Assembly: GCF_013459645.1 (NCBI RefSeq)
Contig: NZ_CP054861.1
Location: 4,204,001-4,268,000 of the forward strand
DNA: 64,000 nucleotides
Direction of reading: 5' to 3'
Origin: Martelella sp. NC20
GTDB lineage: Bacteria; Pseudomonadota; Alphaproteobacteria; Rhizobiales; Rhizobiaceae
This document shows positions 40,063 to 56,885 of the stretch, piece by piece. The notes below the pieces were generated by a model. It had not been told where the DNA came from and ran no database searches. It worked only from the letters and a program-made list of their open reading frames with translations. Numbering within the stretch: the first letter of the stretch is position 1; each line of letters begins with the position of its first letter. The position numbers were made by a program, and so were the translations under genes.

Positions 40063-40078
40063 TTTTGATATATCAAAA
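40063..40078. promoter_or_regulatory. palindromic operator TTTTGATATATCAAAA (copy 1)
   Basis: A perfect 16-bp palindrome in the gap between the divergent SMP-30 and aldolase genes. The same 16 bases occur at 48805-48820, and related sites lie at 40124, 41561 and 56874. It is likely the binding site of a GntR-type dimer. Confidence 0.7.
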
Positions 40079-40123
40079 TGATATTAATGGCGAATACGAT
40101 ATTGTCAGATTTAGGTCGAGCCT

Positions 40124-40139
40124 ATATCGTATATCAAAA
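40124..40139. promoter_or_regulatory. degenerate copy of the palindromic operator (copy 2)
   Basis: ATATCGTATATCAAAA agrees with the 16-base palindrome at 12 positions, with the right half-site exact. It lies 38 bp before the aldolase start, well placed to block its promoter. Confidence 0.5.
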
Positions 40140-40177
40140 TTTCCAATCCGATCTCGCAACGCTAGGCGGAGACCAAT

Positions 40178-40954
40178 ATGAAAAATCCGCTTCGAGCGCG
40201 CCTTCTTACCGGTCAGGCCAGCATCAACGGCTGGCTATCGATGCCGTGTGGATACAGCGCCGAATTGATGGCGAGATGCGGCTGGAACAGTCTGACGGTC
40301 GATTTGCAACACGGCGTGCAGGACTATGCTTCGCTCGTCGCGTGCTTCCAGGCCACAGACGCTTCGGGCATTCCAATGTTGGCCCGCGTGCCATCCAACG
40401 AAAGCGGTATTATTGGAAAGGTCCTCGATGCAGGCGCATGGGGCGTCATCTGCCCGATGATCAATTCCCGCGGGGACTGTGAGCGTTTTGTGGCGTCCTG
40501 CCTCTATCCGCCACTGGGACAGAGGTCCAATGGACCAAACCGCGCATCTGCTTTCGGAAGTCCGGATATGCCCTACCAGGGTTTTGCGAACGCGGAGATC
40601 CTGGTTCTGCCGATGATAGAGACGGTCGAGGCATTGGACGCGCTTGACGACATTCTTGATGTTCCAGGAGTCAGCGGTGCCTATGTCGGGCCGACCGACC
40701 TCGCTTTTTCGATGGGACAGGCGCCCGTCTTCGACAAGGCATCGCCCGAAATACTGGCGACCTATGAGCGTATCGTCAAGGCGGCTGAAAGTCGTGGCAA
40801 GTTTGCCGGAATTCACTGCATGTCGAGCGAGTACGCCTTGAAGATGGCAGGAATGGGCTTCCGCCTGATCACTGTAGCCAGCGATGCGGCGCTGATGACT
40901 ATGTCAGCCCGAGATGTTGTCAGCCGGTTCCACGCCGGCATGGCGGGTAGCTGA
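40178..40954 (+). CDS. HpcH/HpaI family aldolase
   Basis: A 258-residue class II (metal-dependent) aldolase of the HpcH/HpaI family: TVDLQHGVQDYASLV, CLYPPLGQRSNGPNR with the conserved arginine, and metal-site GAYVGPTDLAFSMG. The family cleaves 2-keto-3-deoxy sugar acids to pyruvate plus an aldehyde. It starts a plus-strand run with RidA. The start has GGCGGAGACC upstream. Nearby lactonase and dehydrogenase genes support a sugar-acid-like pathway, but the substrate is not shown. Confidence 0.9.
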   Translation: MKNPLRARLLTGQASINGWLSMPCGYSAELMARCGWNSLTVDLQHGVQDYASLVACFQATDASGIPMLARVPSNESGIIGKVLDAGAWGVICPMINSRGDCERFVASCLYPPLGQRSNGPNRASAFGSPDMPYQGFANAEILVLPMIETVEALDALDDILDVPGVSGAYVGPTDLAFSMGQAPVFDKASPEILATYERIVKAAESRGKFAGIHCMSSEYALKMAGMGFRLITVASDAALMTMSARDVVSRFHAGMAGS

Positions 40955-41422
40955 ATGACGGGCACTGCCTCCACACGTCTTTCAACGCTCGGGCTTACGC
41001 TTCCCAAGTTGCGGGCGCCCGTCGGTAACTTTGTCATGGCAAAGCGTCATCGCGATTTGCTCTATTTGTCCGGCCAAGGCCCTAATACAGAAGGAGCCGC
41101 CAGAATTTCGGGCAAGGTAGGCGACACCGTCAGCGTCGAAGAAGCCTATCAACATGCGCGCCTTGTGACACTTAATCTCCTGTCCGTCGCAGATAACCAT
41201 CTTGGCTCTTTGGATCGCATCGACGCCATCATCAAAGTGCTCGGTTTCGTGAACGCGGCTCCGGATTTCACCGCCCATCCATCCGTTATCAACGGATGTT
41301 CCGATCTCTTGGTCGAGCTTTTTGGTCCGGACCACGGCAGCCACGCACGCTCGGCGATCGGTGCCGGCAGCTTGCCTGCACAGATCACTGTCGAGATTGA
41401 GATGATCGTGAGTTGCAGATGA
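40955..41422 (+). CDS. RidA/YjgF family protein
   Basis: A 155-residue Rid-family protein: LYLSGQGPNTEGAARISGKV, later LFGPDHGSHARSAIGAGSLP, where the arginine in HARSAIG is in the position that binds the imine/carboxylate in RidA. RidA deaminates reactive enamine and imine intermediates. It starts one base after the aldolase stop and is cotranscribed with it. Next to a PLP enzyme gene, a role in clearing an enamine product is plausible. Confidence 0.88.
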   Translation: MTGTASTRLSTLGLTLPKLRAPVGNFVMAKRHRDLLYLSGQGPNTEGAARISGKVGDTVSVEEAYQHARLVTLNLLSVADNHLGSLDRIDAIIKVLGFVNAAPDFTAHPSVINGCSDLLVELFGPDHGSHARSAIGAGSLPAQITVEIEMIVSCR

Positions 41423-41771
41423 CAAAAGCCTCATCAAACCCGCATGTTTGTATCAATTGGGATGGCTCTGCATCCAGACAGATCAAGGTCTTGGTGCCCT
41501 GGCTGGGCAAGTGCATCAAACGGCGGCCGAATTCTACAATGTGGGATCTAGTTACCTCTATTTTGACATATCATAGGCCATATCGTTGGATAGGAATATG
41601 CAGCGTGCTCTCGGTAGCTGCCGGGCGCTTTGTTACGACAGTATTAGAAAACGTCTGCCTCTATTTCCTAACGTCGCTCGCTCTTAGGCGAGCGCCTACA
41701 CACCACCATTTCGCAGATGACCGGCAGAGATTTTTACCGGCTCCTCCATTCCCTGAGCATTTGATGGTAAT
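41423..41771. other. intergenic stretch with operator-like site and hairpin
   Basis: 349 bp between the RidA gene and the next PLP-enzyme gene. It contains a degenerate operator at 41561 and a 7-bp hairpin (CGCTCGC, six-base loop, GCGAGCG) at 41675-41694 without a U-run. No gene was found. Confidence 0.5.
41561..41576. promoter_or_regulatory. degenerate copy of the palindromic operator (copy 3)
   Basis: TTTTGACATATCATAG matches the 16-base palindrome at 13 positions, including the whole left half apart from one base. It lies 196 bp upstream of the PLP-enzyme gene. Confidence 0.5.
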
Positions 41772-43088
41772 ATGACTCTACAATTCGATAACGTTTTGGG
41801 CGCTCCGCGCCCCTGGGAGGCACCGCTTACCGCCTTGGAGAAAGGTGTCCCCGCCCTTCAAGCCCCGTTGCCGCTCGATCAGGTCGCCACGCAGAAATGG
41901 AATATTCTGGCTGAAGACGTGCCTTTGCCGGTCGCAATATTGCGTGAACGCGCGTTGCGGGCAAATAGCGCCTGGATGCGCGGTTATATCGAGCAGACGG
42001 GGGTCAGCATCGCGCCTCATGGCAAGACGTCGATGGCCCCCGCTCTCTACGACCTGCAAATCAGCGATGGCGCATGGGCGATCACCGTCTCAACGCCCCA
42101 GCATTTTGCGGTGGCGCGCGAATTTGGCTTCAAGCGCATCTTCATGGCCAACCAGTTGATCGGACGGCGTGGTATTGCCAACGTCATCGACGGTCTGAAA
42201 GCGTCTCCGGACCTCGCATTTTACTGCCTGGTCGATGACACCGCCAATGTGGCCGCGCTGGCGCGTGCGGTGCGCGAACGCGGACTTGGACGACCGCTCA
42301 ACGTTCTCGTTGAACTTGGTTTCGAAGGAGGCCGAACAGGCTGCCGCTCCCTCGAAGCTGCGCTGCAGGTCGCGCACGCCGTCGCTGAGGAGGCTGACGC
42401 CCTGAACCTTGCCGGTGTTGAGGGGTTCGAAGGCTTGTTGCGGAACGATGGTGCGCCGGAAATCCTTGTGCAGGTCAACGCACTTCTTGACGGTATGGTC
42501 ACCCTGGCGGAAACGGCTGACCGCGAAGGGTTGTTTGGCGATGGAGAAGTACTGCTGTCGGCGGGCGGTTCCTCTTACTACGATCTTGTAACCACCAAAC
42601 TCTCTGCCGCGAAGCTCTCACGGGCTTTCCGTGTACTGATCCGGTCCGGCTGCTACATTACGCATGACTCTCACATGTATGTGCGGGCGCGTGACGCTTT
42701 GGCGCGGCGCGATCCTGCACTTGCGGCGACTGGCAACCTCGAACCCGCGCTGGAAGTATGGGCTTACGTGCAATCCCGCCCCGAGCCATGCAAGGCCATT
42801 GTTGGGTTCGGCAAACGAGACGCATCCTACGATGACCCGCCCATTGGCTTGAAATGGTTTCGTCCGGGCTTGCACGACAAACCGCAACCACTGCCTCCGG
42901 GCCATATCGTGCAACGTCTCAATGATCAGCATTGCCACCTTGAGATTCCGGCACAATCGCCTTTGCTAGTGGGCGACATGCTCGGTTTCGGGATATCGCA
43001 CCCCTGCCTGACATTCGACAAATGGCGCGTGATGCATCTTGTTGATGAGGACTATCTCGTGACGGGCTCAATACGAACTTATTTCTGA
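41772..43088 (+). CDS. D-threonine aldolase / D-serine dehydratase-like PLP enzyme
   Basis: 438 residues, with an N-terminal alanine-racemase-type barrel holding the PLP lysine in SIAPHGKTSMAPALYD, and a C-terminal DSD-like domain with NDQHCHLEI, whose His and Cys bind zinc in the family. Enzymes of this fold split or dehydrate beta-hydroxy D-amino acids. A GGTAAT sequence precedes the ATG. It is followed four bases later by an SDR gene, so an amino alcohol or hydroxyamino acid may be processed here. The exact reaction cannot be assigned. Confidence 0.87.
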   Translation: MTLQFDNVLGAPRPWEAPLTALEKGVPALQAPLPLDQVATQKWNILAEDVPLPVAILRERALRANSAWMRGYIEQTGVSIAPHGKTSMAPALYDLQISDGAWAITVSTPQHFAVAREFGFKRIFMANQLIGRRGIANVIDGLKASPDLAFYCLVDDTANVAALARAVRERGLGRPLNVLVELGFEGGRTGCRSLEAALQVAHAVAEEADALNLAGVEGFEGLLRNDGAPEILVQVNALLDGMVTLAETADREGLFGDGEVLLSAGGSSYYDLVTTKLSAAKLSRAFRVLIRSGCYITHDSHMYVRARDALARRDPALAATGNLEPALEVWAYVQSRPEPCKAIVGFGKRDASYDDPPIGLKWFRPGLHDKPQPLPPGHIVQRLNDQHCHLEIPAQSPLLVGDMLGFGISHPCLTFDKWRVMHLVDEDYLVTGSIRTYF

Positions 43089-43125
43089 TCCAGTGGACCG
43101 GACACGCTTACGAGGGAAGCAAAGG

Positions 43126-43944
43126 ATGACAAAGAGCAAGGTGATCATGATCACCGGCGGTGCAAGCGGAATTGGAACGACCGTCGCCGAGTTGGCGTTG
43201 GCAGCCGGCCATAGGGTCGTTATCGCCGATATCGACATCGCTCGCGCAGAGGATCTGGCGGTGCGACTTGGAGACCGAACATGGGCCGTGAAACTCGACA
43301 TCACGTCGGAAGCCGAGTGGCAGTCGGCGCTTGACACGGTTTGGGCGCGTGAGGGCCGTCTCGATGTTTTGATTAACAACGCGGCGATCGTTCATGCCGG
43401 TTGGGCGCGCGACGTTCCGCTTTCCGGCCACCACGACACGATCCAGACGAATTGTCTCGGCGCGATCAACGGAATGATGACCGCTCTGCCGCGCTTCAAG
43501 CAACAGGGCTCCGGCCACCTCATCACCGTGGCCAGCATGGTTGCCTTCGTTCCCTATCCCGGTCTTGCAAGCTATGCTGCAGCAAAACATGCCTTGCGCG
43601 CATTCCATGTCGCGCTGGCAATCGAGGAAACTGCAAGCCCGGTGGCCTTTACGCTGGTTTATCCCGGCGCCACGGAAACACCGATGCTCGATAAGGAATC
43701 CAAGACAGACGCGCTTGCACTGGCCTTCGCGGGTGAGCCCTGCTCACCACAGGAAGTCGCCAGTCTCATCTTGGACGCCATTGAGACCCGACCCGAAGAA
43801 ATCTATCTGCCACCCGAGCGCGGTGAGGCGGTGCGAAAGCTTGGCGTTGATATCAAAGAATTGCGCGAGCATGTCGAGAAGAACACAGCCATCGGCTGGG
43901 AAAGACTTCAAAAACGCAGACAAACCCACGATGGGGGAAGCTGA
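43126..43944 (+). CDS. short-chain dehydrogenase/reductase
   Basis: A 272-residue classical SDR: TGGASGIGTTVAELAL at the start, NNAAIVHAGW, and the catalytic ASMVAFVPYPGLASYAAAKH with Ser, Tyr and Lys. MTKSKVIMI (ATG at 43126) is chosen because AGCAAAGG lies directly before it and the Rossmann strand starts there. It probably works with the PLP enzyme upstream. Convergent with the GntR gene. Confidence 0.9.
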   Translation: MTKSKVIMITGGASGIGTTVAELALAAGHRVVIADIDIARAEDLAVRLGDRTWAVKLDITSEAEWQSALDTVWAREGRLDVLINNAAIVHAGWARDVPLSGHHDTIQTNCLGAINGMMTALPRFKQQGSGHLITVASMVAFVPYPGLASYAAAKHALRAFHVALAIEETASPVAFTLVYPGATETPMLDKESKTDALALAFAGEPCSPQEVASLILDAIETRPEEIYLPPERGEAVRKLGVDIKELREHVEKNTAIGWERLQKRRQTHDGGS

Positions 43945-43980
43945 AAGCGTGTCGGTGGCCGCGCGCTGCCGGCTTTCGCC

Positions 43981-44715
43981 TCAACCTTTGGCACGTTTTG
44001 ATTTACGAAAATCGCTTTTCTCTGTCTCTTCCATCTGGCGCAGGATGCGATAGGAGCCTTCGCGCAAGTCCTGGACAAGCAGTTCGCCAGTATCGGCGGG
44101 AGAACGGCGCTCAAGCGCGTCGATGACCAGCAAATGCGGATGCATATCCGATGATGCTTCGCGGACATTCGGATATTGCGAATTGACAATCGGTCCCGCG
44201 AGCAGCCAGAGGTTTTCGATCACCCGGACGAGCACCGGATTCTGGGACGCATTGTAGATCGCGAAATGAAAATTCTGGTTCGCTATCAGCGCATCGCGCC
44301 ACTGTTCATCCGCCTCTCCCTGCTGAAACCGCCTGTGGTATTCGCGAAGCGCCTCGATTTCCTCGGCCGTTATATGAACTGCGGCAAGTTCACCTGCCAA
44401 CCGCTCCAAGGGAAGTCGGGTTTCTCGGATGTTGAGATAGACCGGAACGTCGAGCACGGGAACACGCGGCTGATACCCCGGTCGCAGCTCAAGCGCTCCC
44501 TCGCGAACGAGCTGGAAAATCGCTTCTCTTACAGGGGTAGGGGAAGTGTTGAACTCGGATGCGAGACGCCGGATCGATAAACGCATGCCAGGCGGGTGGA
44601 GTCCGGACATAAGCTCTAGACGCAAATGAGCGTAAATTCGCTCAGAAAGACTATTCCTCGACAGGTCCAAAGTATTCTCGTTCGCGGAAATCGCACCGCT
44701 TCGCGTTTGACCCAC
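43981..44715 (-). CDS. GntR family regulator, FCD subfamily
   Basis: 244 residues. The winged helix (RIYAHLRLELMSGLHPPGMR, then FNTSPTPVREAIFQLVREGA) is followed by a helical FCD domain with metal-binding histidines, one in NQNFHFAIY and one in MHPHLLVIDAL. FCD regulators bind carboxylate ligands and are released from AT-rich palindromes. This is the best candidate to bind the TTTTGATATATCAAAA sites around 40-57 kb. The start is GTG at 44715. Confidence 0.9.
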   Translation of the reverse strand: MGQTRSGAISANENTLDLSRNSLSERIYAHLRLELMSGLHPPGMRLSIRRLASEFNTSPTPVREAIFQLVREGALELRPGYQPRVPVLDVPVYLNIRETRLPLERLAGELAAVHITAEEIEALREYHRRFQQGEADEQWRDALIANQNFHFAIYNASQNPVLVRVIENLWLLAGPIVNSQYPNVREASSDMHPHLLVIDALERRSPADTGELLVQDLREGSYRILRQMEETEKSDFRKSKRAKG

Positions 44716-45408
44716 GACAAGCCCTAGCTCTTATTGCACACAACGGATCATCTGGTATCACGAATGCCGGCTTTTCGCAAAGCTATGGCCTTCGCCTGAC
44801 TTTGATATTGGGCTGAATAAACAGCGCCCAGACTTGTTGGAATGCAGGGCCTCGCTCCGCACCTTGGCAGGCTTCCTGTATTGCACCGACCTGGCCGTTT
44901 TCAATCCGTGACGAACTATCGCCGGTATTGTGAGGGGCCTTCTTGCGCGGTGCGCCGTTGATCTGACAACAGGCACGCGTTTTTGGTCCGAAGCTCAAGG
45001 CACGGAACTTCGGCAATCACACCACAGAAGCAAAGATCGGCATCTGTGCTCTCAACCAGATGAGCCAACTCGGCCATCCGGTGTTCAAGCCCGTGGCCTG
45101 AAAAATCTGAAGGTGGGGTTATCTCGTCCCAAATTTGACCCGTGCAACAAAGCCGTTTGCTGCCGCCTTGTCAAAGCACAGGACCTCGCAAATCCGGTTT
45201 GCCGTGATGCGGGGTTCGGCGCTGCCCAAACCGAAGTTCTGGCGGTAGACTGCTGAAGTCTTGCGGATCCAGGCACAGCTGACGGCATTGAGCAGGAAAG
45301 GCAGTACTTGTTGATATCCAAAATGGTGATGTCTTGACACAACTTGACCTGAGCCTCGCGTCTGGCCGTCTCATTCTCAGCTGTCATCCTGTTTCCGTCA
45401 TATCCCTG
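44716..45408. other. intergenic stretch, largely unexplained
   Basis: About 690 bp between the GntR gene and the reductase gene. It contains one copy of a short repeat (44933). Several short frames exist on both strands but none resembles a known protein. A tRNA-like D-arm (complement of about 45049-45075) was looked at and not accepted. Confidence 0.5.
44933..44988 (+). repeat. 56-bp repeat, copy 1
   Basis: The sequence beginning AGGGGCCTTCTTGCGCGG matches the complement of 46715-46769 at most positions. Both translate to a similar peptide (RGLLARCAVDLTTGTRF here, RGLVARIVVDLITGPRF there), so the copies may be remains of a coding or mobile element. The two flank the ferredoxin reductase gene in inverted orientation. 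Confidence 0.55.
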
Positions 45409-46593
45409 TTAACTCAGGCTTAGGTCATATCCTCCCCGCTCGAGCATGTCACGAGAGCAAGGCTCTCTGGAAGCCAGCACCTTGCGCGCCTTCATGTGGT
45501 TTTTTGCATCATTGATCGTCTCGACCGCTGTCAAGATGCCTTCAGAGAACCGAAACACGGCTGTTTCTCCCACCGGAATGCTTTCGTCTTCCGGCCCCGA
45601 CAACCCGGCAATCTGCAGTTTCCAATTGGCTTGATCCGACCAGAACCAGGGAACGGCAGTGTAGCCAGAAAGGTCCCCCTTCACGAGACGCCGTGCAATG
45701 AGACGGGCATGATCGGTCGCTGCCTGAACGCTCTCAAGGCGAACGGATCGTCCAGTACGCGGGTCGGGAAACGAAGCGCAATCTCCAAGCGCGGAGATAT
45801 TCGGATCCAAAGTCAGGAGATACTGGTCGACGATAATCCCGTTTTCGACAGACAGTCTGGCATCTTCGGCAAGCTTTACGTTCGGCCGAACACCCGCCGC
45901 CAACAAAACCAGATCCGCTTCCACGTCTTCGCCGTTCGAGACTGTCACCGATGTATCGGAGATATGAGCAACGGACGCACCAAGAAGGATGCGTGTTCCA
46001 AGCGCGCGATGAAAGTCGAGAAATCTAGCCGACATCGCGTGAGAAACGGCTCTCGAAAGAAGTCTTGGTGCCGTTTCCACCACGGTCACATCATGGCCCG
46101 ACGCCCTTGCCACCGCAGCAAATTCCAGCCCGATGAACCCACCCCCGATAACCGCAATACGCCGAGAGCGGTCAAGCCCCTCGCGCAGACGCTTCGCATC
46201 CTCCAGCGTTCTCAGGTCAAGCGCTCTTTCGAGCCCGTTTATAGGCGGACGGAAGTTGGATGTGCCGGTTGCGAGTATCAGGTGATCGAACTCATATGCC
46301 TGTTCGCTGGCGATGACCTTTCTTCCGGCGCGATCGAGACGATTAACGGTCGTTTTGGCGATCAACTCGATCCTGTTCTTCTCGAAGAATGCTGATGGCC
46401 TGAGGGTCAGTCCCTCCACGTCGCCCGTCTTGAGATAGGCCTTGGATAGCGGGGGACGCTGGTAAGGCAGGCCGGGCTCATCCCCGATCAGGGTGATACT
46501 TCCTTCAAAGCCTTCCTGGCGTAGGCTGATAGCGACCTGCAGCCCACCCTGCCCAGCTCCGACGATAACGACCCGGCTTTGAGATGAAGTCAC
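45409..46593 (-). CDS. NAD(P)H-dependent ferredoxin reductase of P450 system
   Basis: A 394-residue flavoprotein of the putidaredoxin/rhodocoxin reductase type. FAD motif VIVGAGQGGLQVAISLRQEG is at the N-terminus, LPYQRPPLSKAYL follows, the NAD motif AVIGGGFIGLEFAAVARASG is mid-protein, and ALGDCASFPD near residue 270. It moves electrons from NAD(P)H to a 2Fe-2S ferredoxin. It is followed upstream on the same strand by P450 and ferredoxin genes, a complete class I set, with a 240-bp gap between. Confidence 0.92.
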   Translation of the reverse strand: MTSSQSRVVIVGAGQGGLQVAISLRQEGFEGSITLIGDEPGLPYQRPPLSKAYLKTGDVEGLTLRPSAFFEKNRIELIAKTTVNRLDRAGRKVIASEQAYEFDHLILATGTSNFRPPINGLERALDLRTLEDAKRLREGLDRSRRIAVIGGGFIGLEFAAVARASGHDVTVVETAPRLLSRAVSHAMSARFLDFHRALGTRILLGASVAHISDTSVTVSNGEDVEADLVLLAAGVRPNVKLAEDARLSVENGIIVDQYLLTLDPNISALGDCASFPDPRTGRSVRLESVQAATDHARLIARRLVKGDLSGYTAVPWFWSDQANWKLQIAGLSGPEDESIPVGETAVFRFSEGILTAVETINDAKNHMKARKVLASREPCSRDMLERGGYDLSLS

Positions 46594-46714
46594 CCCTGCT
46601 CCTCCGGCAAATGGATGATGAGCCCTTCAAGCTCCTCATCGCTTGTCCAGACCGTCAAATCACCACGCCGTCTCAGGCTTTCATTGTGCTTATGCCGCAT
46701 CCACAACATCCTGA

Positions 46715-46769
46715 GATCAAAACGCGGGCCTGTTATCAGATCAACGACGATCCGCGCAACAAGGCCTCT
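46715..46769 (-). repeat. 56-bp repeat, copy 2 (inverted)
   Basis: On the minus strand it reads AGAGGCCTTGTTGCGCGG onwards, the counterpart of 44933-44988. It lies in the 240-bp gap between the reductase and P450 genes, which otherwise holds nothing recognisable. Confidence 0.55.
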
Positions 46770-46833
46770 AAAGTGCAAGAACAACGCTGGAACCATAGAG
46801 CGCCAGTCGTGTTTGAAAAACGATCTCTCGTGA

Positions 46834-48126
46834 TCACACCGTCTGCGGCGCATCTTTCCTGAGCCTCACGGGAAAGACTTTCAACTGCGACAGCTTGTGC
46901 GACGGATACCAGACAGCAGGGTTATTCCCTGGCTCACAGATCACACCGTTAGCTTCAAATTCCTCGATCATGACCCTGACGAGCATCACCCCGACATATC
47001 GGCCCGGGCAAATGTGGATGCCGCCACCGAACGTCGTCAATCCGGCCGGAGGTCGGTTGGGGTTGAAGACTTCCGGATCCGCAAAAGTCGCCGGGTCATA
47101 ATTCCCGGCTCCCCACATCATGGAGATCATGTTGCCAGCCGGAATGATGAGATCGTCGTAGTGAAAATCACGGAGCGAAAACCTGGGTAGGAATAGGACA
47201 GGAGGGTTAAGACGCAAAGCCTCGGCAATTGCTCTCGGGACAAGTTCAGGCGTCTGCCGCACCAGTTCCATTGCATTTGGAGTTGATGCCAGCGCGAAAA
47301 CCGTATTGGCTGCCGCAAGCGCGGCTGTGTGGACACCGTCTATGAGATTGCCCGCCAGGAAATCGCCAACGGATTTCGGCACGACCCCCGTCTCGAACGG
47401 GTCGTCCTGGAAATCCAGATCTTTCAGCTTTTCAGCGATTTCGAGCATGATTGGGTCGCCCTCGGCGAGACCTCGCTCGGCCGCGCCCGCCAGAATCTGC
47501 GCATAACCTGAAAAAGCCACATCAAGAGCGCGCAAATCGTCGTCAGTCCGATCCACGTAAAAGAGCCTCGTCATATTCCGTGCATGCTGCCCAAGGCTTT
47601 GCGATTCACTCTCGGTGAGATGTAGCAACTCACTCCAGAAACCGAGGATCAGCCGTTCGGCAACCTCCTTCACGAAGTCAATTTCTTCGCCGTCGGCGGT
47701 TTCGCGAATGATTTGGTTCACAATCTTTCGCGCGACCCCTTCCATCAGGTTGACACCTTTTGGACTGAGCCATGATGTAAGTATGCGTCTGGCCGGACCG
47801 TGCAGCGGTGGATTAAAGGTGAACACCTGCTTGCCAATCACCTCGCCAATCTCCCACCCCGGAAGCTTCTCCTGAGGGTCGTCTGTTTCCATGTATCTGC
47901 TCGGGAAAAGCGTGCCGATCGGTACATTTCCGATTTCCGGCGCAGCACCAAATGCGCGGAGATCAGCATTACGGAAAACAACCAGTTGATTGTTTTCGTT
48001 CTTCAGGAACCGGGGGACTGGCGCGTCGAAAATCCGTCGACAAAACTCCCGCAGACCGTCGCGACCCGCCGTGAAACCCACGTCACTCAGCGAGGGCAGG
48101 CTTGCAATATCCAGTATTTCGGGCAT
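46834..48126 (-). CDS. cytochrome P450
   Basis: A 430-residue bacterial P450. The haem-ligand loop is FGGGIHICPGRYVG and the ExxR motif is in AIAEALRLNPP. In the I-helix the usual acid-Thr pair (GxDT) reads LIDGVHTAALAAAN: Thr is kept, but the acid before it is histidine. P450s insert oxygen into C-H or N-alkyl groups, using electrons from the neighbouring ferredoxin and reductase. No signal or membrane anchor. The substrate is unknown. The start is ATG at 48126, 33 bp after the ferredoxin stop. Confidence 0.93.
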   Translation of the reverse strand: MPEILDIASLPSLSDVGFTAGRDGLREFCRRIFDAPVPRFLKNENNQLVVFRNADLRAFGAAPEIGNVPIGTLFPSRYMETDDPQEKLPGWEIGEVIGKQVFTFNPPLHGPARRILTSWLSPKGVNLMEGVARKIVNQIIRETADGEEIDFVKEVAERLILGFWSELLHLTESESQSLGQHARNMTRLFYVDRTDDDLRALDVAFSGYAQILAGAAERGLAEGDPIMLEIAEKLKDLDFQDDPFETGVVPKSVGDFLAGNLIDGVHTAALAAANTVFALASTPNAMELVRQTPELVPRAIAEALRLNPPVLFLPRFSLRDFHYDDLIIPAGNMISMMWGAGNYDPATFADPEVFNPNRPPAGLTTFGGGIHICPGRYVGVMLVRVMIEEFEANGVICEPGNNPAVWYPSHKLSQLKVFPVRLRKDAPQTV

Positions 48127-48159
48127 TACGCTTCTCCACTTTTATCAAATTGCCGCGGA

Positions 48160-48471
48160 TTATTCTTCAGGAGCGATCTCGACCCGCAGGTCATCCATGC
48201 CTTCAGTGACTGTGATCTGGCACGACAACCTGGAATTTTCCTTCTGGTGAAGAAGCGAGTCGAGCATGTCCGCCTCACCATCGCTTATGTCTTCGAGATA
48301 GGCGGATGGCTCAACATAAACATGACAGGTGGCACAGGAACAGCTGCCCCCACACAACGCCGCGATATCGTCAATGCCGCCGCCTCTGAGAGTTTCCATC
48401 AGCGACCGGCCTGTAGGGACGGAAAGGTCAATGGGTGAGCCGTTACGGGTAGTGACATGAATATTGATCAT
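48160..48471 (-). CDS. 2Fe-2S ferredoxin (putidaredoxin/adrenodoxin type)
   Basis: 103 residues with cluster ligands in CGGSCSCATCHVY (C-x5-C-x2-C) and a fourth cysteine in SRLSCQITV. It carries single electrons from the reductase to the P450. It is the first gene of the set; a perfect copy of the 16-bp operator lies 334 bp upstream of its start. Confidence 0.94.
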   Translation of the reverse strand: MINIHVTTRNGSPIDLSVPTGRSLMETLRGGGIDDIAALCGGSCSCATCHVYVEPSAYLEDISDGEADMLDSLLHQKENSRLSCQITVTEGMDDLRVEIAPEE

Positions 48472-49206: not shown

Positions 49207-49857
49207 ATGAAACTAGAGAAAAGTGCGGAGATTTGCGATGCGGTCTCCTTTATGGAGGAAGCCGGACTCAACCACGGCAGTTCGGGCAATATCAGCATAC
49301 GTCACGAGGGCGGCATGCTGATTACGCCTGCCGGAGCGCGCGCGTCCAACCTTTCACCGGAAAGGATGGTGTGGCTGGATCTGGACGGTGGCCAAGCTGA
49401 TGGCGAACCCGGTGTGCCTTCCACCGAATGGCGGCTTCATACCGAACTTTACATCAACAGGCCGGAGATAATGGCTGTCGTTCATAGCCACCCGGACAAT
49501 TGCGTCGCCTTGTCCTCTTTACGTACGCCGATCCCCCCATTCCACTACATGGTTGCCGGCTTCGGTGGCAACTCGGTGCCCTGCGCGCGCTATGAGCCCT
49601 TTGGCTCCGATGCTTTGGCCGATGCCGTGGTTGAAGCGATTGAAGGTCACACGAGCTGTCTTATGGCCAATCATGGCATGATCAGCGTCGGCAAGAGCCT
49701 CCGACAGGCGCTTGACCTTGCCGTTAAACTGGAGACGCTGGCGCGGCAATATCTTCTGGCTCGCCAAGCCGGGCATCCGGTTTTGCTGACGGATGAGGAG
49801 ATGGCCGATGTACATCATCGATACAAGTTTTACGGAACGTCACGCTTGCCTAGATGA
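49207..49857 (+). CDS. class II aldolase/adducin family protein
   Basis: A 216-residue zinc aldolase related to FucA. GSSGNISIRHEGGMLITPAG is at the start, the catalytic glutamate in PSTEWRLH, zinc ligands in AVVHSHPDNC and MANHGMI. It splits a phosphorylated or free hydroxy-keto compound (fuculose-phosphate type). AGGAGCAAC precedes the ATG. With the DUF1537 kinase at 61189 it could act in a four-carbon acid sugar route, since those families often occur together. Confidence 0.92.
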   Translation: MKLEKSAEICDAVSFMEEAGLNHGSSGNISIRHEGGMLITPAGARASNLSPERMVWLDLDGGQADGEPGVPSTEWRLHTELYINRPEIMAVVHSHPDNCVALSSLRTPIPPFHYMVAGFGGNSVPCARYEPFGSDALADAVVEAIEGHTSCLMANHGMISVGKSLRQALDLAVKLETLARQYLLARQAGHPVLLTDEEMADVHHRYKFYGTSRLPR

Positions 49858-49876: not shown

Positions 49877-51121
49877 CTATGACGGTTCAGAGCTAGCGAG
49901 CTTGGTGCTATCGTGGCATGCGATCACGCCGCTGTTTTCCAGATTGCGGATATGGTCAGCACTGAATCCAAGCACATCGGAGAGGACAATGGCTGTATCC
50001 TCACCCAGCAATGGAGGCGCTTTCGGCATTCTTCCGGTCTGAGCGGCAAGACCGTGAGCAGGTCGTATCAGCCGAACCGGGCCTAAAACGCGATGAGTAA
50101 GCTCTTGTACGACGCCACGTTCGACGACGACTTCGCTCTCCAGAGCGTCTGCGACGGTTTTCACCCTGCCAGCGGGAACGCCATATTCGCCGCATAGGCT
50201 TAGCCAATGATTAACCGACTGCCGAGCGAGCACCTCTACAAGCTCCTGTATCAGAGTATTGCGATTTATTGCCCGCAGGTGCGAGGTGGCATAGCGTGGA
50301 TCCGCCGCCAAGTCCTGTCTCGATATGACATTCTGGCAGAAGTCGACGAATATCCTGTCATTTCCCACAGCAAGCGCGAAAGGGCCGTCCAGGGCATCAA
50401 AAACCTGATAAGGCACAACGGTCGGGTGGGCGTTGCCATAGCGTGATGCTTCGACACCAGCATTCAGGTACCCGCTGCCGACATTGATCAAGAGATTGAG
50501 GGTGGACTCCAGCAGGGATACATCAATGAACTGCCCCTCCCCTGTCTTCGTGCGCTGATAAAGTGCTGCTAGGATCGACTGCGTCGATACCATCCCGGCC
50601 ACCACGTCGGTGAAGGCGACGCCCAACCTATTGGGTGGCCCGTCAACCTGACCAGTGATGGACATCAATCCGCTTTCCGCTTGCATGATGAAATCATATC
50701 CGGGGCGGGCACGTTGCGGACCGGTCTGTCCATAACCGGAGATTGAGCAGTAGATGATGGCCGGGTTGATCTTACGTATGGCTTCGTAGCCAAGCCCCAA
50801 GCGGTCAACTGTGCCGGCACGGAAATTCTCGACGAGAATGTCGGCCTTTGCAGCCAGATCGAGAACGATCTGGCGCCCCTCGGCGCTCTTGAGGTCGAGC
50901 GCGATGCTATGCTTTCCGCGGTTGGCGCAGAGATAATAGGTGCTCACACCCTTGTAGTTCGGCACCGACCACGCGCGGGTATCGTCACCGCCCTTAACGT
51001 TCTCGATCTTCCAGATATCGGCACCAAGATCCCCAAGGCTCATTGTGGCCCAGGGACCGGCAAGCACCCGCGACAGGTCCAATACCTTCAACCCCTCAAG
51101 AGGAAGTTCCTTTGTTGTCAT
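49877..51121 (-). CDS. class III (CaiB/Frc family) CoA-transferase
   Basis: A 414-residue family III CoA-transferase, starting [20 protein letters not shown] and with [20 protein letters not shown]. The catalytic aspartate is likely in AFTDVVAGM, after [17 protein letters not shown]. It transfers CoA between carboxylic acids, e.g. formyl/succinyl/carnitine type. The ATG at 51121 has GGGAGGAGTAGAC upstream. It lies just after the oligopeptide ATPase gene, same strand. Confidence 0.92.
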
Positions 51122-51141
51122 GTCTACTCCTCCCAAGACAC

Positions 51142-52155
51142 CTAAGCCACCTCACCCAACAGGCCCGAAGGCTGCGCATCGGGAAAATGACAGGCCACAT
51201 GATGACCATTGCCGTGATCGGTCAGCTGCGGCTCAATTTCGGCGCAGAGGGACTGGGCCTTCGGACAACGCGTGCGAAACCGGCAGCCTGAAGGCGGGTT
51301 GATGGGGCTTGGAACGTCGCCCTTGAGCACGATGCGCTTGCGCGAACGCTCGCGGATCGGATCTGCCAACGGCACGGCTGACATGAGCGCCTGAGTGTAG
51401 GGATGCATCGGCTGGCCATAAAGCTGCATTTTCGGCGCGATCTCCACCATGCGCCCGAGATACATGACCGCCACACGATCGGAAATGTGCTGCACCACCG
51501 AAAGATCATGTGCGATGAACACATAAGCCGTCCCGAGATCTCGTTGGATATCCTTCAGCAGATTGAGCACGCCCGCCTGGACGGAGACGTCGAGCGCAGA
51601 TACCGGCTCGTCCAAAACCAGGAGATCAGGCTTCATCGCCAACGCGCGTGCAATGACGACGCGCTGACGCTGCCCGCCTGAAAGCTGATGCGGGTAGCGA
51701 TCGCCGTGTTCCGGATTGAGACGAACCAACTCAAGCATTTCGTCGACGCGCGCCCTGCGTTGCGCCTTCGTCATATCGCTGATGCGCAGCGGCTCGGCGA
51801 TATTGTCTCTGATTTTCATACGGGGGTGCAAGGAACCGTAGGGGTCTTGAAACATCAATTGGATGCGCTTGCGCAACATGCGCATCTCTTCCGAGGGAAG
51901 CCGGTTGATGTCGACGCCCTCGAAGAAAATCTCGCCGGATGTCGGCTCGATAAGCCGCAGCAGGCAACGGCCCAGAGTGGACTTGCCACATCCGCTTTCG
52001 CCCACCAGGCCAAGCGTTTCCCCTGCGGAAACATCAAAGCTGATGCCGGCGACAGCATTGACCTGGCCGACTTCGCGTTCAATCAGAAAGCCGCCTTTAA
52101 TCGGGAACTGTTTGACGATGTTGCGGACGGAAAGAATTGCCTGATGTTCGGTCAT
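51142..52155 (-). CDS. dipeptide/oligopeptide ABC transporter ATPase (DppF-type)
   Basis: 337 residues with Walker [10 protein letters not shown], signature [15 protein letters not shown], Walker [13 protein letters not shown] and the C-terminal OppF-like cysteine motif [14 protein letters not shown]. With the neighbouring DppD-like ATPase and two permeases it imports peptides or other small solutes. Its start overlaps the upstream gene by four bases. Confidence 0.94.
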
Positions 52156-53153
52156 GCCATGGTCTCCGTCGCGGAAAAGGCGAAATGGCAAGCGGCGCTA
52201 TGGTTCTCGTCGCCGGCCGGCTTCGGCGCTTCAGTACTACAGATCGTCTGAGCGACGGGGCAGCGCGGATGAAATGCACAGCCCCCAGGCAAATGTCCGA
52301 GAGCAGGCGGAGCACCGCTGATGGAAAACAGTCTGTCGCGAGCGACCGCCATATTGGGAATAGATTCTATGAGGCCGCGCGTGTAGGGATGACCCGGGCG
52401 GGCAAACAGATCGAAAATGTTTGCCTGTTCCACAACTTCGCCCGAATAAATGACTGCAACCTTGTCAGCGAAGCCTGCGAGGACGCCCAGATCGTGCGTG
52501 ATCAAAATGATCCCCAGCTTGAGCCTATGCTGGAGATCGGCGAGCACGTCCATGATCTGTGCCTGAACGGTCACGTCAAGCGCAGTCGTCGGTTCGTCGG
52601 CAATCAGAACATCCGGATTGTTGGCCATCGCCATCGCAATTATGACGCGCTGTCGCATGCCGCCAGAGAACTCATGAGGATACTGCTGCAACCTCCTGTC
52701 CGGCTGCGGGATGGCGACGAGCTCGAGGAGTTCAGTCGCACGCGCCAAAGCATCTTTCCGAGAGATGTTCGAGTTATGCAGAGTGAGCGATTCAAGAAGC
52801 TGGGCCCCAACAGTCATCACGGGATTGAGCGAGGAAAGCGGATCCTGAAAGATCATAGCGATACGTGATCCGCTCAACTTTCGCAGCTCTCGCCGGGGGA
52901 GCCCCACCAGTTCGCGACCTCGGAAGCGCACCGAACCGGTTATCCGGGTATCCTTTGGCAGCAGACCAAGAGCTGCCAGCATGCCAACGGACTTGCCCGA
53001 TCCGGACTCGCCGACAATCCCGAGCACCTCGCCGGCACCGACACTGAAATTCAGGCCTCGAACAGCCTCGAAGTAGCCCACCGCTCCGCCGCCAAAGGCG
53101 ACGCGCAGGTCGCGAAATTCAAATAGGGGTTCGGATTCTGTATGATTGTTCAT
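52152..53153 (-). CDS. dipeptide/oligopeptide ABC transporter ATPase (DppD-type)
   Basis: 333 residues with Walker [10 protein letters not shown], signature [15 protein letters not shown], Walker [12 protein letters not shown] and C-terminal [15 protein letters not shown]. The ATGA overlap with the permease upstream shows coupling. It is paired with the DppF-type ATPase. Confidence 0.94.
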
Positions 53154-53995
53154 TGGGACCTCGGGTCGAAGTAATCGCGGAGGCCGTCACCAATGAAGTT
53201 GAAGCCCAAGACGACGGTAAGGATAGCCACGCCCGGCCCCAACGCGACCCACCAGGAATAGAACTGTGACGCGCCGTCAGAAATCATGGAGCCCCATTCA
53301 GGTGCCGGGGGTTTTGCGCCGAGGCCGATAAAGGAGAGCGAAGCGGCAAGCAGGATGACTTGCCCCAAATCCATCGTCGCGCTGATGAGAACGGGTGTCC
53401 AGCAAAGCGGCAGAATATGCTTCGACAGAACCCGTGCAGGGGTTGCCCCAGCCGCGACAGCGGCTTCGACGTGTTCACGCTCGCGCACTTCCAGCACTTG
53501 CGCCCGCATCAGGCGTGCATAGATCGGCCACCAGACGATGACCATGGCAACAGCAGCGTTCTCCAAGCCAGGGCCGAGGGAGGCGGCAACCGCCATGGCC
53601 AGCAACATGGGGGGAAACGACAGGGTTATGTCGACCAGACGCATGATCCCAGCGCCGGGGAGGCCACCGACGAAGCCCGAAAGTGCACCCAGCGCGGAAC
53701 CGATAAATACGGCGATCGCGACAACGATAACGGCAATTGGTATGGAGTGCCGGGCGCCATAGAGCGTTCTGGCGAACACGTCTCGTCCAAGAGCATCAGT
53801 TCCCAGCCAATGATCCCAGCTTGGCGGCTGCAACCTGCGCCCAACCATCTCCAATGGGTCAAAGGATGTCATGAACGGTGCGAACAGTGTGGCCATAAGC
53901 CAGAACGCGATGATAATTCCACCGACGACCAGTGGCAGCGAAATCATCATCATGATTGGCCTGCGGCCAAGTGGAGTGAGAGTGGTTTCAGTCAT
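53150..53995 (-). CDS. dipeptide/oligopeptide ABC transporter permease (DppC-type)
   Basis: 281 residues with six helices, an N-terminal cytoplasmic stretch and GTDALGRDVFARTLYGARHS, the DppC hallmark. The coupling loop reads EHVEAAVAAGATPARVLSKH. It is partner to DppB. Confidence 0.94.
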   Translation of the reverse strand: MTETTLTPLGRRPIMMMISLPLVVGGIIIAFWLMATLFAPFMTSFDPLEMVGRRLQPPSWDHWLGTDALGRDVFARTLYGARHSIPIAVIVVAIAVFIGSALGALSGFVGGLPGAGIMRLVDITLSFPPMLLAMAVAASLGPGLENAAVAMVIVWWPIYARLMRAQVLEVREREHVEAAVAAGATPARVLSKHILPLCWTPVLISATMDLGQVILLAASLSFIGLGAKPPAPEWGSMISDGASQFYSWWVALGPGVAILTVVLGFNFIGDGLRDYFDPRSQ

Positions 53996-53998
53996 CGT

Positions 53999-55012
53999 TC
54001 AACTCAACCGGACACGAGGGTTAGCAACAACATAGGCGATGTCTGTCAGCAGATTGGTCAGGAGGAACATCGAGCCGCCGACGATCGTCACACCGATGAT
54101 TGCGGGGAAATCAAGGCCCCGCGCGGCCTGAACGGCGTAGGACCCCATTCCCGGCCACGAAAATATCGTCTCGGTAAGCACCGCCCCCGTCAGGAGGTAT
54201 GCAAACGAATATCCAATCACCGTCAGTGTCGGCACCATTGTATTGCGAAGGGCATGATGCATGACGACCCTGAACTCTCCTGCTCCCTTTGCCCTTGCGG
54301 TCAGGATGAACTCGCGGCTCATGACTTCCAACATATTGGCGCGGACGAGGCGCGAAATCGTGCCTGCTACCGACCACCCCAGAACGAAGGCAGGAAGGAT
54401 CAAATGCCGTAGCGCATCGGCGAATAGTCGGAAGTCGCCAGACAGCAGACTGTCGATGATAATGAACCCTGTGATCGTTGGAGGTAGCGCCGCGCGCGCA
54501 TCAACCCTGCCGGGACCAGGAAGGAAGTGCCAGTGGACGGACGTCACGTAAATCAGCGCCAGGCCGAGCCAGAAAACAGGCACGCTGGAGCCGAACAAGG
54601 CAATGAGGCGAGCGACGTGATCGATTGCCGTTCCCCGAAAATAGGCGGCGAGAACGCCAAGCGAAATGCCCATCACCGTTCCAACAAGCATGGCGGCGAT
54701 AACCAACTCCATAGTGGCGGGAAGGCGGTACATCAAATCCTGTGTTACCGGTCGGCGGGTGATGAAGGATGTCCCCATATCGCCTTTGAGCAGGTTCGTA
54801 ACATAGATCACGTAACGCTCAGGCAACGGTTTATCTAGGCCCCATCGCGCCTTGGCAGCTGCCACAATGTCAGGGTTGTTCATCTGTCGTTCGGAGACGA
54901 TCGCGCTCAGCGGATCGCCCTTCACCACGGTGGTAAGGAGGAATGCGAGTGTGACAATTCCCAGTATCAGGAAGGGCATCGCAAAAAGTCGACGGACTAT
55001 GTATCTAGTCAA
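53999..55012 (-). CDS. dipeptide/oligopeptide ABC transporter permease (DppB-type)
   Basis: About 337 residues, DppB family: RRLFAMPFLILGIVTLAFLL, then FITRRPVTQDLMYRLPATME, and EAA-like loop REFILTARAKGAGEFRVVMH. The start is taken as TTG at 55012 (LTRYIVRRLF), where this family normally begins and AGGAAGG lies upstream. The longer frame to 55195 would run across the IclR promoter region. First gene of the minus-strand transport operon. Confidence 0.92.
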   Translation of the reverse strand: MTRYIVRRLFAMPFLILGIVTLAFLLTTVVKGDPLSAIVSERQMNNPDIVAAAKARWGLDKPLPERYVIYVTNLLKGDMGTSFITRRPVTQDLMYRLPATMELVIAAMLVGTVMGISLGVLAAYFRGTAIDHVARLIALFGSSVPVFWLGLALIYVTSVHWHFLPGPGRVDARAALPPTITGFIIIDSLLSGDFRLFADALRHLILPAFVLGWSVAGTISRLVRANMLEVMSREFILTARAKGAGEFRVVMHHALRNTMVPTLTVIGYSFAYLLTGAVLTETIFSWPGMGSYAVQAARGLDFPAIIGVTIVGGSMFLLTNLLTDIAYVVANPRVRLS

Positions 55013-55105
55013 GGTTATAGAGCCTTCCTGTGATCGGATTATCGGCTTTGTCGTTTCGTCATGCAGGGAGAGATTGACAAAAAACAGATAAGACGTCAAC
55101 TTTGA

Positions 55106-55120
55106 TGAAATTAAATTCCA
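55106..55120. promoter_or_regulatory. candidate IclR-type operator
   Basis: TGAAATTAAATTCCA is an imperfect palindrome matching the E. coli IclR consensus TGGAAATNATTTCCA at 11 of 14 fixed positions. It lies between the divergent dppB-type operon and the iclR gene, the expected position. Confidence 0.45.
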
Positions 55121-55211
55121 TTTTTTCTCGACAATGGCTTTTGGTAATCGGAGTAAAACGCCAAATGCCTTTGAATCAGGCAAGGTACGGTCCATTAAGA
55201 AGGAACACTAG

Positions 55212-56024
55212 ATGAGGAAAAGAGCGCAACCTCCTCTCGATAAGGCATCGGCGGAGAGCCCGGGCTCAGCCGCAACCTTAGCAAGGGGACTGGATATTCT
55301 CCGTGCTTTCACCGCCAGTGATACCACCTTGGGCAACCAGGATTTGATCGAGCGAACGGGCCTTCCCAAAGCAACTATATCCCGCTTGACGCTCACCCTG
55401 ACCAATCTTGGCTATCTCCACTACAACGACCGGCTCGGACGCTACAGCATTGGGCCGGCAACCGTATCGCTCGGTTATTCAGCGCTGAGTTCGAGCCCGG
55501 TCGTACACATCGCCCGTCCCTTGATGGAGCACCTAACGGAGAAGACCGGCGCTGCTGTGGCCATTGGAATGCGCGACGGATTGGAGATGGTGTATATTGC
55601 GACCTGCAGACCTATTTCTCCCGTGACCTTGCGGCTCGATGTCGGCTCCCGGCTGCCGATTTGGCGGACTGCCAATGGCTTGGCCCATCTCGCGGTCATG
55701 GAGCGCGCGGAACGCACAAGCATCGTCGAACAGTTGATTGAAAGGGAGCCAGCCCAGGCCAAACGCATCGCATCGCTGGTTGATCAGGCCGTTGTCGATC
55801 AGTCGCAACGCGGCTTCGTGGGCGCATTCGGCGCTTGGTACAGCTATATCAACGCTGTGGGGACGTGTTTCTTTCCCACCGATGGTTCACCGACCGTGTC
55901 AATCACCTGCGGCGGCATTGTAGACATTCTGCCACGTGAGGTCTGCATGACTTCTACGGGACCGGAACTGATAAAGATGACGGAACAACTGAAGCTGAAA
56001 TTGGCCGGAAATGATATTGCATAA
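55212..56024 (+). CDS. IclR family transcriptional regulator
   Basis: 270 residues. The N-terminal winged helix (DLIERTGLPKATISRLTLTL) and the C-terminal IclR ligand-binding domain with VGAFGAWYSYINAVGTCFFP are typical. It is divergent from the ABC transporter genes, which it probably represses until its ligand is present. Confidence 0.9.
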   Translation: MRKRAQPPLDKASAESPGSAATLARGLDILRAFTASDTTLGNQDLIERTGLPKATISRLTLTLTNLGYLHYNDRLGRYSIGPATVSLGYSALSSSPVVHIARPLMEHLTEKTGAAVAIGMRDGLEMVYIATCRPISPVTLRLDVGSRLPIWRTANGLAHLAVMERAERTSIVEQLIEREPAQAKRIASLVDQAVVDQSQRGFVGAFGAWYSYINAVGTCFFPTDGSPTVSITCGGIVDILPREVCMTSTGPELIKMTEQLKLKLAGNDIA

Positions 56025-56090
56025 TTGAAATAGGGTGCTGCATGACCTCAGACCCGCATGGCATCATGCCTTCAGGGCTCAGCAAACAGT

Positions 56091-56810
56091 CTAATGGATC
56101 ATTCCAATCTGCTGCACTTCCGAAATGAGACTAGCCCTGTTCGACACGTTCATCTTTTCAAACATATTCTGTAAATGAGTTTTTACAGTGGGAAGCGAAA
56201 TCGAGAGTTCTTCAGCAATCTCGATATTCGTCAGGCCTCTACAAACCAGATGCACAACAGCGAGTTCCCTCGGCGACAGCATGTAATGGACCAACAGCCT
56301 GTGCCGCGCCAGTTCGCGCACGACATGTGGATGGCGCAAGAGGCTCGCTTCAATATAGGTCTGCATGCTGTCGGCGAGTTTGACGACCTCCAGCGGGATA
56401 CAGGGCGCATCGCCATCCCGGGCGATCAGGCCCATGCCGGCAATAGCACGCCCTTCACACCAGAACAGCATTTCCAGAGAGTCCCTGATTCCACTGAAGT
56501 TCATATAGGGACGGTAACGCTCCATCGTACCATTGGGCAGCGTCGAGCATGCCTGCCCAAGCGTCTGGGTCCGCAATTGGAGATCAATCATACGGGAAGG
56601 ACTGCAGGGGTCGTGTTCGTAGAAAGTCGATTGGTAGAGGTTAAGTCGGCTCTGGTCCACGCCTTCAACAGCCACGAACTTCATCCGGGTTCGATCATCG
56701 ACCCAATAGAAAACCGCCGATGAAAGATGCGTCGCCTCGATTGAAAATCTCAGCAGATTGACGATCTCAGTATTTTGGTCACCGTCGTTTTCGACCTGGA
56801 TGGTTCTCAT
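56091..56810 (-). CDS. LuxR family transcriptional regulator
   Basis: A 239-residue protein. The N-terminal 170 residues (LLRFSIEATHLSSAVFYWVD) form a GAF-like or other sensory domain without recognised ligand. The C-terminal GerE-type helix-turn-helix reads LSPRELAVVHLVCRGLTNIE then LSISLPTVKTHLQNMFEKMN. ATG 56810 (MRTIQVEN) is chosen because CAGGAGC precedes it by six bases. An operator-like palindrome lies 64 bp upstream. Confidence 0.87.
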   Translation of the reverse strand: MRTIQVENDGDQNTEIVNLLRFSIEATHLSSAVFYWVDDRTRMKFVAVEGVDQSRLNLYQSTFYEHDPCSPSRMIDLQLRTQTLGQACSTLPNGTMERYRPYMNFSGIRDSLEMLFWCEGRAIAGMGLIARDGDAPCIPLEVVKLADSMQTYIEASLLRHPHVVRELARHRLLVHYMLSPRELAVVHLVCRGLTNIEIAEELSISLPTVKTHLQNMFEKMNVSNRASLISEVQQIGMIH

Positions 56811-56873
56811 TCCGGCGCTCCTGACTTGCAAATTGGCGCGTCTCTTTATTCCCCGTCATGAGAATTCCTCAAA

Positions 56874-56885
56874 ATGATATATCAT
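56874..56885. promoter_or_regulatory. core palindrome ATGATATATCAT (copy 5 of operator)
   Basis: Matches the central ten bases of the operator (TGATATATCA) exactly and is itself a 12-bp palindrome. It lies between the divergent luxR-type and dmmA-like genes. Confidence 0.5.

Follow-up and report, generated by a model that had tools for sequence, protein, structure and literature searches.

Within a stretch of 64,000 nucleotides of Martelella sp. NC20 (hereafter the window, one stretch of the source genome G000, which has 6,109,677 bases in three contigs), a gene cluster in two arms contains a perfect 16-bp palindrome, TTTTGATATATCAAAA, at 40063-40078 and again, 8.7 kb away, at 48805-48820. 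We propose that the GntR-FCD protein whose gene occupies 43981-44715 very probably uses this palindrome as its operator, and that the regulon of this protein includes both arms, a proposal built on sequence comparison. In the left arm, a gene for an SMP-30/gluconolactonase lies beside those for an HpcH/HpaI-type aldolase, a RidA-type protein, a D-serine-dehydratase-like enzyme and a short-chain dehydrogenase, with the GntR-FCD gene convergent to these. The right arm has ferredoxin reductase, cytochrome P450 and ferredoxin genes on one strand and a class II aldolase gene on the opposite one; further along, the CoA-transferase and transporter genes face a gene for an IclR regulator, and a luxR-type gene faces those for a DmmA-like protein, a solute-binding protein, an aminotransferase and a kinase-like protein. 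The genes and putative sites are as follows.

39130-40011, minus strand: SMP-30/gluconolactonase (PF08450, E 8.9e-76)
40063-40078, no strand: putative operator 1, perfect palindrome between SMP-30 (minus) and the HpcH/HpaI aldolase (plus)
40124-40139, no strand: putative operator 1b, degenerate (12/16), one half-site perfect, 61 bp from operator 1
40178-40954, plus strand: HpcH/HpaI-type aldolase (PF03328), 55% identical to an operator-preceded gene of locus L153
40955-41422, plus strand: RidA/YjgF-type protein (PF14588, PF01042)
41561-41576, no strand: weak candidate operator (13/16) before the gene for the D-serine-dehydratase-like enzyme
41772-43088, plus strand: D-serine-dehydratase-like pyridoxal phosphate enzyme (PF14031)
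43093-43944, plus strand: short-chain dehydrogenase (SDR; PF00106)
43981-44715, minus strand: GntR-FCD regulator (PF00392, PF07729), proposed from tree and motif co-occurrence to bind all operators
45409-46593, minus strand: ferredoxin reductase (PF07992, PF14759)
46834-48126, minus strand: cytochrome P450 (PF00067)
48160-48471, minus strand: [2Fe-2S] ferredoxin (PF00111)
48805-48820, no strand: putative operator 2, perfect palindrome about midway between the divergent ferredoxin and class II aldolase genes
49207-49857, plus strand: class II aldolase (PF00596)
49877-51136, minus strand: coenzyme A (CoA)-transferase family III, probably in the IclR-linked module; no upstream operator found
51142-55195, minus strand: peptide-type ATP-binding cassette (ABC) transporter, two ATPases and two permeases; no upstream operator found
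55212-56024, plus strand: IclR regulator, a rival candidate for the right arm, kept beside the transporter in L021, L158, L159 and L160
56091-56831, minus strand: LuxR-type regulator (PF00196)
56872-56887, no strand: putative operator 3, core TGATATATCA intact at 56875-56884, between luxR (minus) and the dmmA-like gene (plus)
57194-57901, plus strand: DmmA-like protein (PF22289 above, PF22290 just below cut-off), first gene of a likely operon
58022-59674, plus strand: family 5 solute-binding protein (PF00496)
59550-60971, plus strand: class III aminotransferase (PF00202)
61189-62457, plus strand: 3-oxo-tetronate-kinase-like protein (NF043035, 266.7 bits, under its cut-off of 350)

The two perfect copies, the degenerate forms at 40124 and 41561 and the intact core at 56875-56884 had been named in a sequence-only reading of this DNA, and all of them are there. 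Their assignment to promoter regions likewise agrees with the gene map: apart from an extra 13/16 match at 43996, which lies inside the 3' end of gntR and is probably due to chance, every site falls between Pfam-named genes, although some are overlapped by unsupported short open reading frames (ORFs). The centre of operator 1 (40070) is about 60 bp from the SMP-30 start codon, and that of operator 1b (40131) about 47 bp from the start codon of the HpcH aldolase. Operator 3 is centred (56879) some 50-70 bp from the luxR start and about 315 bp from that of the dmmA-like gene. The site at 48805 is mid-intergenic, since its centre (48812) is about 340 bp from the ferredoxin start and about 395 bp from that of the class II aldolase.

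The earlier reading had also suggested comparing the density of the motif with that in the rest of the genome. Allowing up to two mismatches, TTTTGATATATCAAAA has two matches in the 6,109,677 bases, both in the window, and the reversed control has none; when extended, the two copies are identical over 20 bp (CATTTTTGATATATCAAAAT). Genome-wide, the 12-mer TTGATATATCAA is restricted to the same two places, and three of the four copies of the 10-mer core TGATATATCA are in the window. At up to three mismatches the 16-mer matches 15 places in the genome (13 with exactly three mismatches), of which four are inside 40063-48820, and the reversed control matches three; taken alone, the sites at 41561 and 43996 are thus unremarkable. 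The four window matches at this threshold compare with a mean of 0.03 in shuffled sequence, and the five sites with at least 12/16 positions in 39001-64000 with a mean of 0.44, counts that none of 100 shuffles reached in either case. Outside the window there are 12 weak sites (11 at three mismatches and one core), and the six of these that we examined in 20 kb each (L147-L152) had neither a match to the GntR profile nor an adjoining cluster gene; all six overlap an ORF of at least 100 amino acids, which carries little weight in GC-rich DNA. Around position 10000 of one of them (L151; C3:128349 of the same genome), GATATATCGA occurs twice within about 30 bp and is perhaps another regulator's target.

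The protein encoded in the middle of the cluster has a GntR helix-turn-helix (PF00392, 56.8 bits, cut-off 27) and an FCD effector domain (PF07729, 75 bits, cut-off 24.3), and a trait of the FCD subfamily, a palindromic A/T-rich operator in the promoters of linked genes, is present. An alignment of 42 GntR proteins, used as query, gave at least 79 loci from the best 80 of a longer list of matches. In these, sites resembling TTGATATATCAA concentrate beside the nearer GntR relatives and dwindle beside the farther ones. Near GntR proteins at least 54% identical to that of the window, TTGATATATCAA at up to one mismatch ranked first against 384 palindromes of like composition, with sites in six of nine loci, a count in which a single site serves both L019 and L022, two overlapping loci of the same contig. 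It ranked second at 40-48% identity (5/11 loci), first at 36-39% (7/25) and 69th, without a single locus among 34, at 31-35%. A rapidly built tree with 88 GntR rows, made up of 87 of 88 loci and the window with L137 left out, places 26 of the 27 motif-bearing rows in one 38-member clade together with the window protein (support in the Shimodaira-Hasegawa-like approximate likelihood ratio test, SH-aLRT, 98); some of its branches are long, making single placements unsure. Rows were labelled by TTGATATATCAA, ATGATATATCAA or ATGATATATCAT at up to one mismatch anywhere in the locus, that of the window being set by hand. Outside the clade the motif accompanies one row of 50 (L065); within it, nine of the 12 rows in the window's sub-clade and 17 of the 26 in the other carry it. 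The motif-bearing loci belong to Hyphomicrobiales, to Roseomonas-like bacteria and to other Alphaproteobacteria. Because site and regulator are found together in related bacteria as well, the palindrome is very probably a docking site for the GntR protein.

The clade also differs from its relatives within the protein. Residue 60 is Thr in 38/38 clade rows, compared with Met in 43 of the 50 others, and residue 68 is Gln in all 38, compared with Arg in 44 of the 50. At residue 59, which corresponds to Arg45 of FadR by an ungapped alignment on the RE pair in Table 1 of PMC4494728, the window protein has Pro and no clade row has Arg (Pro, Ala or Gln in 12 rows, Glu, Asp or Gln in 26); this absence does not mark the clade, because Arg is rare or absent at this position outside it too. 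N146, H150 and H194 are invariant in the 88 rows and are candidates for an Asn/His metal site in the effector domain like that of Atu1419, a further His of which could not be placed. In one protein, P0059, GntR/FCD domains are joined to RidA-type domains (PF14588, PF01042), a further link to the genes of the left arm. On metagenome contigs, P0002 and P0003 are GntR relatives with identities of 92 and 81%.

Where the sites stand in these relatives argues in the same direction. In the 88 loci, accepting up to one mismatch to TTGATATATCAA, or two with the core GATATATC intact, we counted 35 distinct sites, three of which, those of L137 and L141, are in loci to which the motif itself had led. None is inside a match to a homologue of a window gene, and 25 are at most 200 bp upstream of one, compared with 800 of 17,600 random positions (4.5%); the test is not blind, since it was revised after a first version that had extrapolated start codons and missed the aminotransferase. 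The homologues downstream are aminotransferases (10), GntR genes (8), SMP-30 (4), solute-binding proteins (2) and ABC ATPases (6), with five sites counting twice; the six ATPases, labelled OppF, are general ones of 30-38% identity. In five SMP-30 promoters from five genomes the palindrome is the longest conserved block, with 15 of its 16 positions invariant and flanks that scarcely align. On the other side of this promoter there is a GntR gene in four of the five genomes, and the HpcH aldolase gene in the window. The AT-rich tendency of intergenic DNA, and an IS21 element nearby (36316-38567), could suggest that the sites are chance promoter palindromes or the end of an insertion sequence. Such an origin is exceedingly improbable and we reject it, given the shuffles, the lack of any further match at up to two mismatches in 6.11 Mb, the ranking among palindromes and the conservation of the SMP-30 promoter site within those flanks.

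A motif-only search provided a more independent view. Among 397 genomes of the order, the 14-mer occurs in nine, and in two copies only in the genome of the window. This search led to L141, where GntR (61% identity), SMP-30 (54%), the deaminase (64%) and the SDR (57%) are found together with six sites of at least 12/16, compared with 0.02 by shuffling. One of the sites, at 11027 (12/16), precedes the D-serine-dehydratase-like homologue, in parallel to 41561 in the window. Wider DNA was examined for 10 of 24 other motif-bearing genomes, of which one gave the L141 cluster and another, L137, encodes a distant FCD-like protein (2005-2736, E 7.1e-15) 108 bp from a perfect 16-mer at 2839; the operator may hence be older than the clade described here. 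In a further pair, L138 and L139, TTTTGATATATCAAAA or a one-mismatch form occurs near position 9999 in what is apparently the same gene setting, at a guanine-plus-cytosine (GC) content of 0.42 and with no GntR relative nearby.

Several observations weigh against the proposal. In the clade, 12 of 38 rows lack the motif, and no site of at least 12/16 was found in L015, which has the nearest GntR in the tree, or in L021 and L024; L021 has 11/16 sites in front of its SDR-GntR genes, and for L006-L012 the absence says little, as these loci span only 3.7 kb. Upstream of the window's own gntR we found no operator; eight relatives carry one within 200 bp upstream of theirs. Eight of the ten genomes picked by motif (L138, L139, L140 and L142-L146) have no GntR relative nearby, although six of the eight have a GC content of 0.42 or less, where a chance motif is likelier. 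Boxes resembling promoter elements lie across operators 1b and 3 and next to operator 1, yet they are 9/12 matches only and few above chance (two compared with 0.5, and one compared with 0.3, by shuffling), and 48805 has none closer than some 135 bp. In sequence, TGATATATCA is without the GT and AC boxes of the consensus given in passages of PMC4494728. Finally, the right-arm module of L159 and L160 has no site of at least 13/16 (L159 has one of 12/16).

This last observation bears on the right arm in particular, whose genes recur at 53-84% identity, together with IclR, on plasmids of Agrobacterium sp. T29 (L158), Shinella (L159) and Sinorhizobium sp. RAC02 (L160). In L158 a single 13/16 site stands before a DmmA gene and is the only one of at least 13/16. 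In Novosphingobium capsulatum (L157:11647-15269), which belongs to another order, the aminotransferase, class II aldolase and P450 genes are together, the last two facing each other just as they do in the window, and no operator site was found in this locus. Because relatives of the right arm are mostly without the operator, the sites at 48805 and 56875 look recruited, and we consider it probable, from this comparison, that the operator was recruited to this arm. What speaks against recruitment is the old association of the aminotransferase with the wider clade, 10 of the 35 sites being in front of it.

Since IclR is kept beside the transporter in four of the loci and operator 3 stands directly before luxR, one could suppose that the IclR (55212-56024) or LuxR (56091-56831) protein binds the palindrome and that GntR is a mere neighbour. 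This seems very unlikely: L159 and L160 have IclR yet lack the site as described above, and the two Agrobacterium plasmid loci point to GntR instead. On pAlCFBP5477 (L153; GntR 63% identical) there are four sites, namely 15/16 at 11 bp before SMP-30, 14/16 at 79 bp before the HpcH aldolase, 12/16 before a solute-binding-protein operon and 13/16 before a second transporter operon, and GntR is the sole regulator named among the 26 features of a plasmid gene table that is incomplete. The T29 plasmid locus L154 (GntR 51%) has 13/16 before a solute-binding protein, 14/16 before a DUF4432 gene, a one-mismatch 10-mer before the HpcH aldolase and an intact 10-mer core before a DUF3445-DmmA-reductase operon, this last site sharing ATGATATATCATGCA with operator 3. 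In neither locus did tblastn find a relative of IclR or LuxR. Among L006-L045, loci which were chosen by GntR and hence are not an unbiased contest, the window LuxR matches none and IclR only L021, itself without a site of at least 12/16. No site was found in two further plasmid loci with more distant GntR proteins (L155 and L156; 38.5 and 41.6%).

With GntR as the most probable binder, it could still read the left-arm sites only (40063, 40124 and perhaps 41561), those at 48805 and 56875 belonging to a second protein that recognises the same target or being inactive copies. The scarcity of the operator among relatives of the right arm and the 340 and 395 bp between 48805 and its flanking genes would fit such a division. 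However, the sites at 48805 and 40063 are identical over 20 bp, single sites of the FadR subfamily in divergent promoters tend to be about mid-way according to parts of PMC4494728, and the site stands elsewhere at a dmm-type promoter and at aminotransferase promoters, which makes the division rather unlikely in our view. The claim of the sequence-only reading that a single GntR regulon spans the cluster is thus supported: the comparison of motif density came out in its favour, and it gained from the motif following the GntR clade, from the homologous promoters and from the motif-only locus L141. More caution is due for 48805 and 56875, where membership would derive from the sites themselves and from the partial parallels at aminotransferase promoters and the L154 dmm-type promoter.

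From the sites, their rarity, their position and their co-occurrence with the GntR clade, all directly visible in the DNA, we infer binding, repression rather than activation, an inducer and looping. A GntR dimer would sit on each palindrome with one subunit per half-site and, without inducer, would block the divergent promoters at 40063/40124, 48805 and 56875. The first pair would control SMP-30 in one direction and the HpcH aldolase, RidA, deaminase and SDR genes in the other; 48805 would control the ferredoxin, P450 and reductase genes one way and the class II aldolase the other; and 56875 would act on luxR and, oppositely, on the dmmA-like, solute-binding protein, aminotransferase and kinase genes. 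Repression is taken from the habit of the family, as the promoter-like boxes at the sites are weak. Release might come from a small acid formed from the imported substrate or from a one-carbon folate, the latter being a guess by analogy with two distant relatives and from the demethylase-like genes.

For the SMP-30 promoter, paired sites may indicate co-operative binding or a short loop. A second site stands on the same side of the palindrome, away from SMP-30, in the window (61 bp, 12/16), in L017 (62 bp, 13/16), in L018 (62 bp, 11/16) and in L141 (61 bp, 12/16, tied with another at 170 bp); these are about three independent cases, since L017 and L018 are near relatives, and the spacing corresponds to about six helical turns. 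Its recurrence in L017, L018 and L141 backs the degenerate site at 40124. L016 has no clear partner (9/16 at 61 bp, 10/16 at 54 bp), and none at 61-62 bp was found at 48805, at 56872 or at the L153 and L154 sites.

Among solved structures, the GntR profile matched E. coli McbR/YncC best (GntR, FCD/VanR group; PDB 4p9f; E 1.1e-28), and the best NCBIfam match of the window protein was NF008504/PRK11414 (92.2, cut-off 225), which we take to be YncC. It is distant (E 8.4e-10) from 6z74, presumably Atu1419 of Agrobacterium fabrum. McbR controls other genes than those of the window; from passages of a 2026 paper (PMC13343897), its sites in chromatin immunoprecipitation sequencing (ChIP-seq) seem to include ATATAT, and folates are reported as ligands. 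Atu1419, also of the FCD/VanR group, is alike in that the catabolic promoters it controls carry paired 10-bp palindromes, of which one is degenerate; at a fixed spacing, such pairs are present in the window, L017, L018 and L141. Parts of PMC7797058 describe Atu1419 as a tetrameric FCD repressor that binds paired palindromes and loops DNA, with methylene-tetrahydrofolate as its proposed inducer. Its operator ATGTATACAT is of the GT...AC form with a spacing of 190 or 109 bp, whereas that of the window reads G-ATATAT-C with 61-62 bp. The FadR-subfamily regulons of Suvorova et al. 2015 (PMC4494728, in part) also resemble the present case, with palindromic A/T-rich operators, often in divergent promoters, and genes for acids or oxidised substrates. 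The same parts give a subfamily consensus TKGT/ACMA, which TGATATATCA does not fit, and a canonical class NyGTNxACNy, and list exceptions such as BioR and NanR, beside which the window operator takes its place, so that GT...AC does not define the GntR family.

A search of the open-licence PMC literature by core, 12-mer and gene set found no description of this operator paired with a GntR protein. The kind of gene control is familiar, and the cluster is a good new example of it with an unusual operator sequence; for a GntR clade it supplies an operator, a regulator and a set of genes that can be tested. The operator falls outside the GT...AC consensus and the recognition helix differs to match, which makes the case useful when GntR operators are to be predicted from protein sequences. 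Placing a P450 system under the same signal as a DmmA-like protein also narrows the search for their substrate. The fullest version, in which a GntR of an undescribed clade joins its own module of lactonase, aldolase and deaminase genes to a module of separate origin, with IclR-linked transporter, aminotransferase, P450 and DmmA genes and no operator in most of its relatives, through G-ATATAT-C operators and a 61-62 bp loop, with a one-carbon folate from P450/DmmA demethylation as inducer, is improbable as a whole.

As for the substrate, the order SDR, lactonase, deaminase, RidA and 2-keto-acid aldolase could tentatively suggest an amino sugar or amino-sugar acid; L153 also has an aldose epimerase and a semialdehyde dehydrogenase, which bear on this idea, and a literature search on such substrates gave nothing decisive. 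The cluster looks acquired: the GC content changes from about 0.65 at the left end of the window to about 0.55 in the cluster, and GntR matches with E up to 1e-40 occur in eight of 151 genomes (its own included), none of the 12 same-genus genomes being among these. Two listed gene starts probably call for correction. For luxR, read by eye, an ATG with its first base at 56810 is likelier than the listed TTG, and the aminotransferase ORF probably starts too early, as the NCBIfam family is matched from residue 67 onwards. The stretch of about 690 bp that separates gntR from the ferredoxin reductase gene (44716-45408) shows no clear gene and no operator and may be a remnant. Left of the cluster, a short DeoR-type frame (35687-36196) stands next to a glycerol-3-phosphate-dehydrogenase-like gene and is followed by the IS21 pair istA/istB (36316-38567), whose insertion may have interrupted the DeoR gene. 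Further left still, the 6 kb at 18001-24000 have an AT skew of 0.16 to 0.20, unlike most of the left half of the window.

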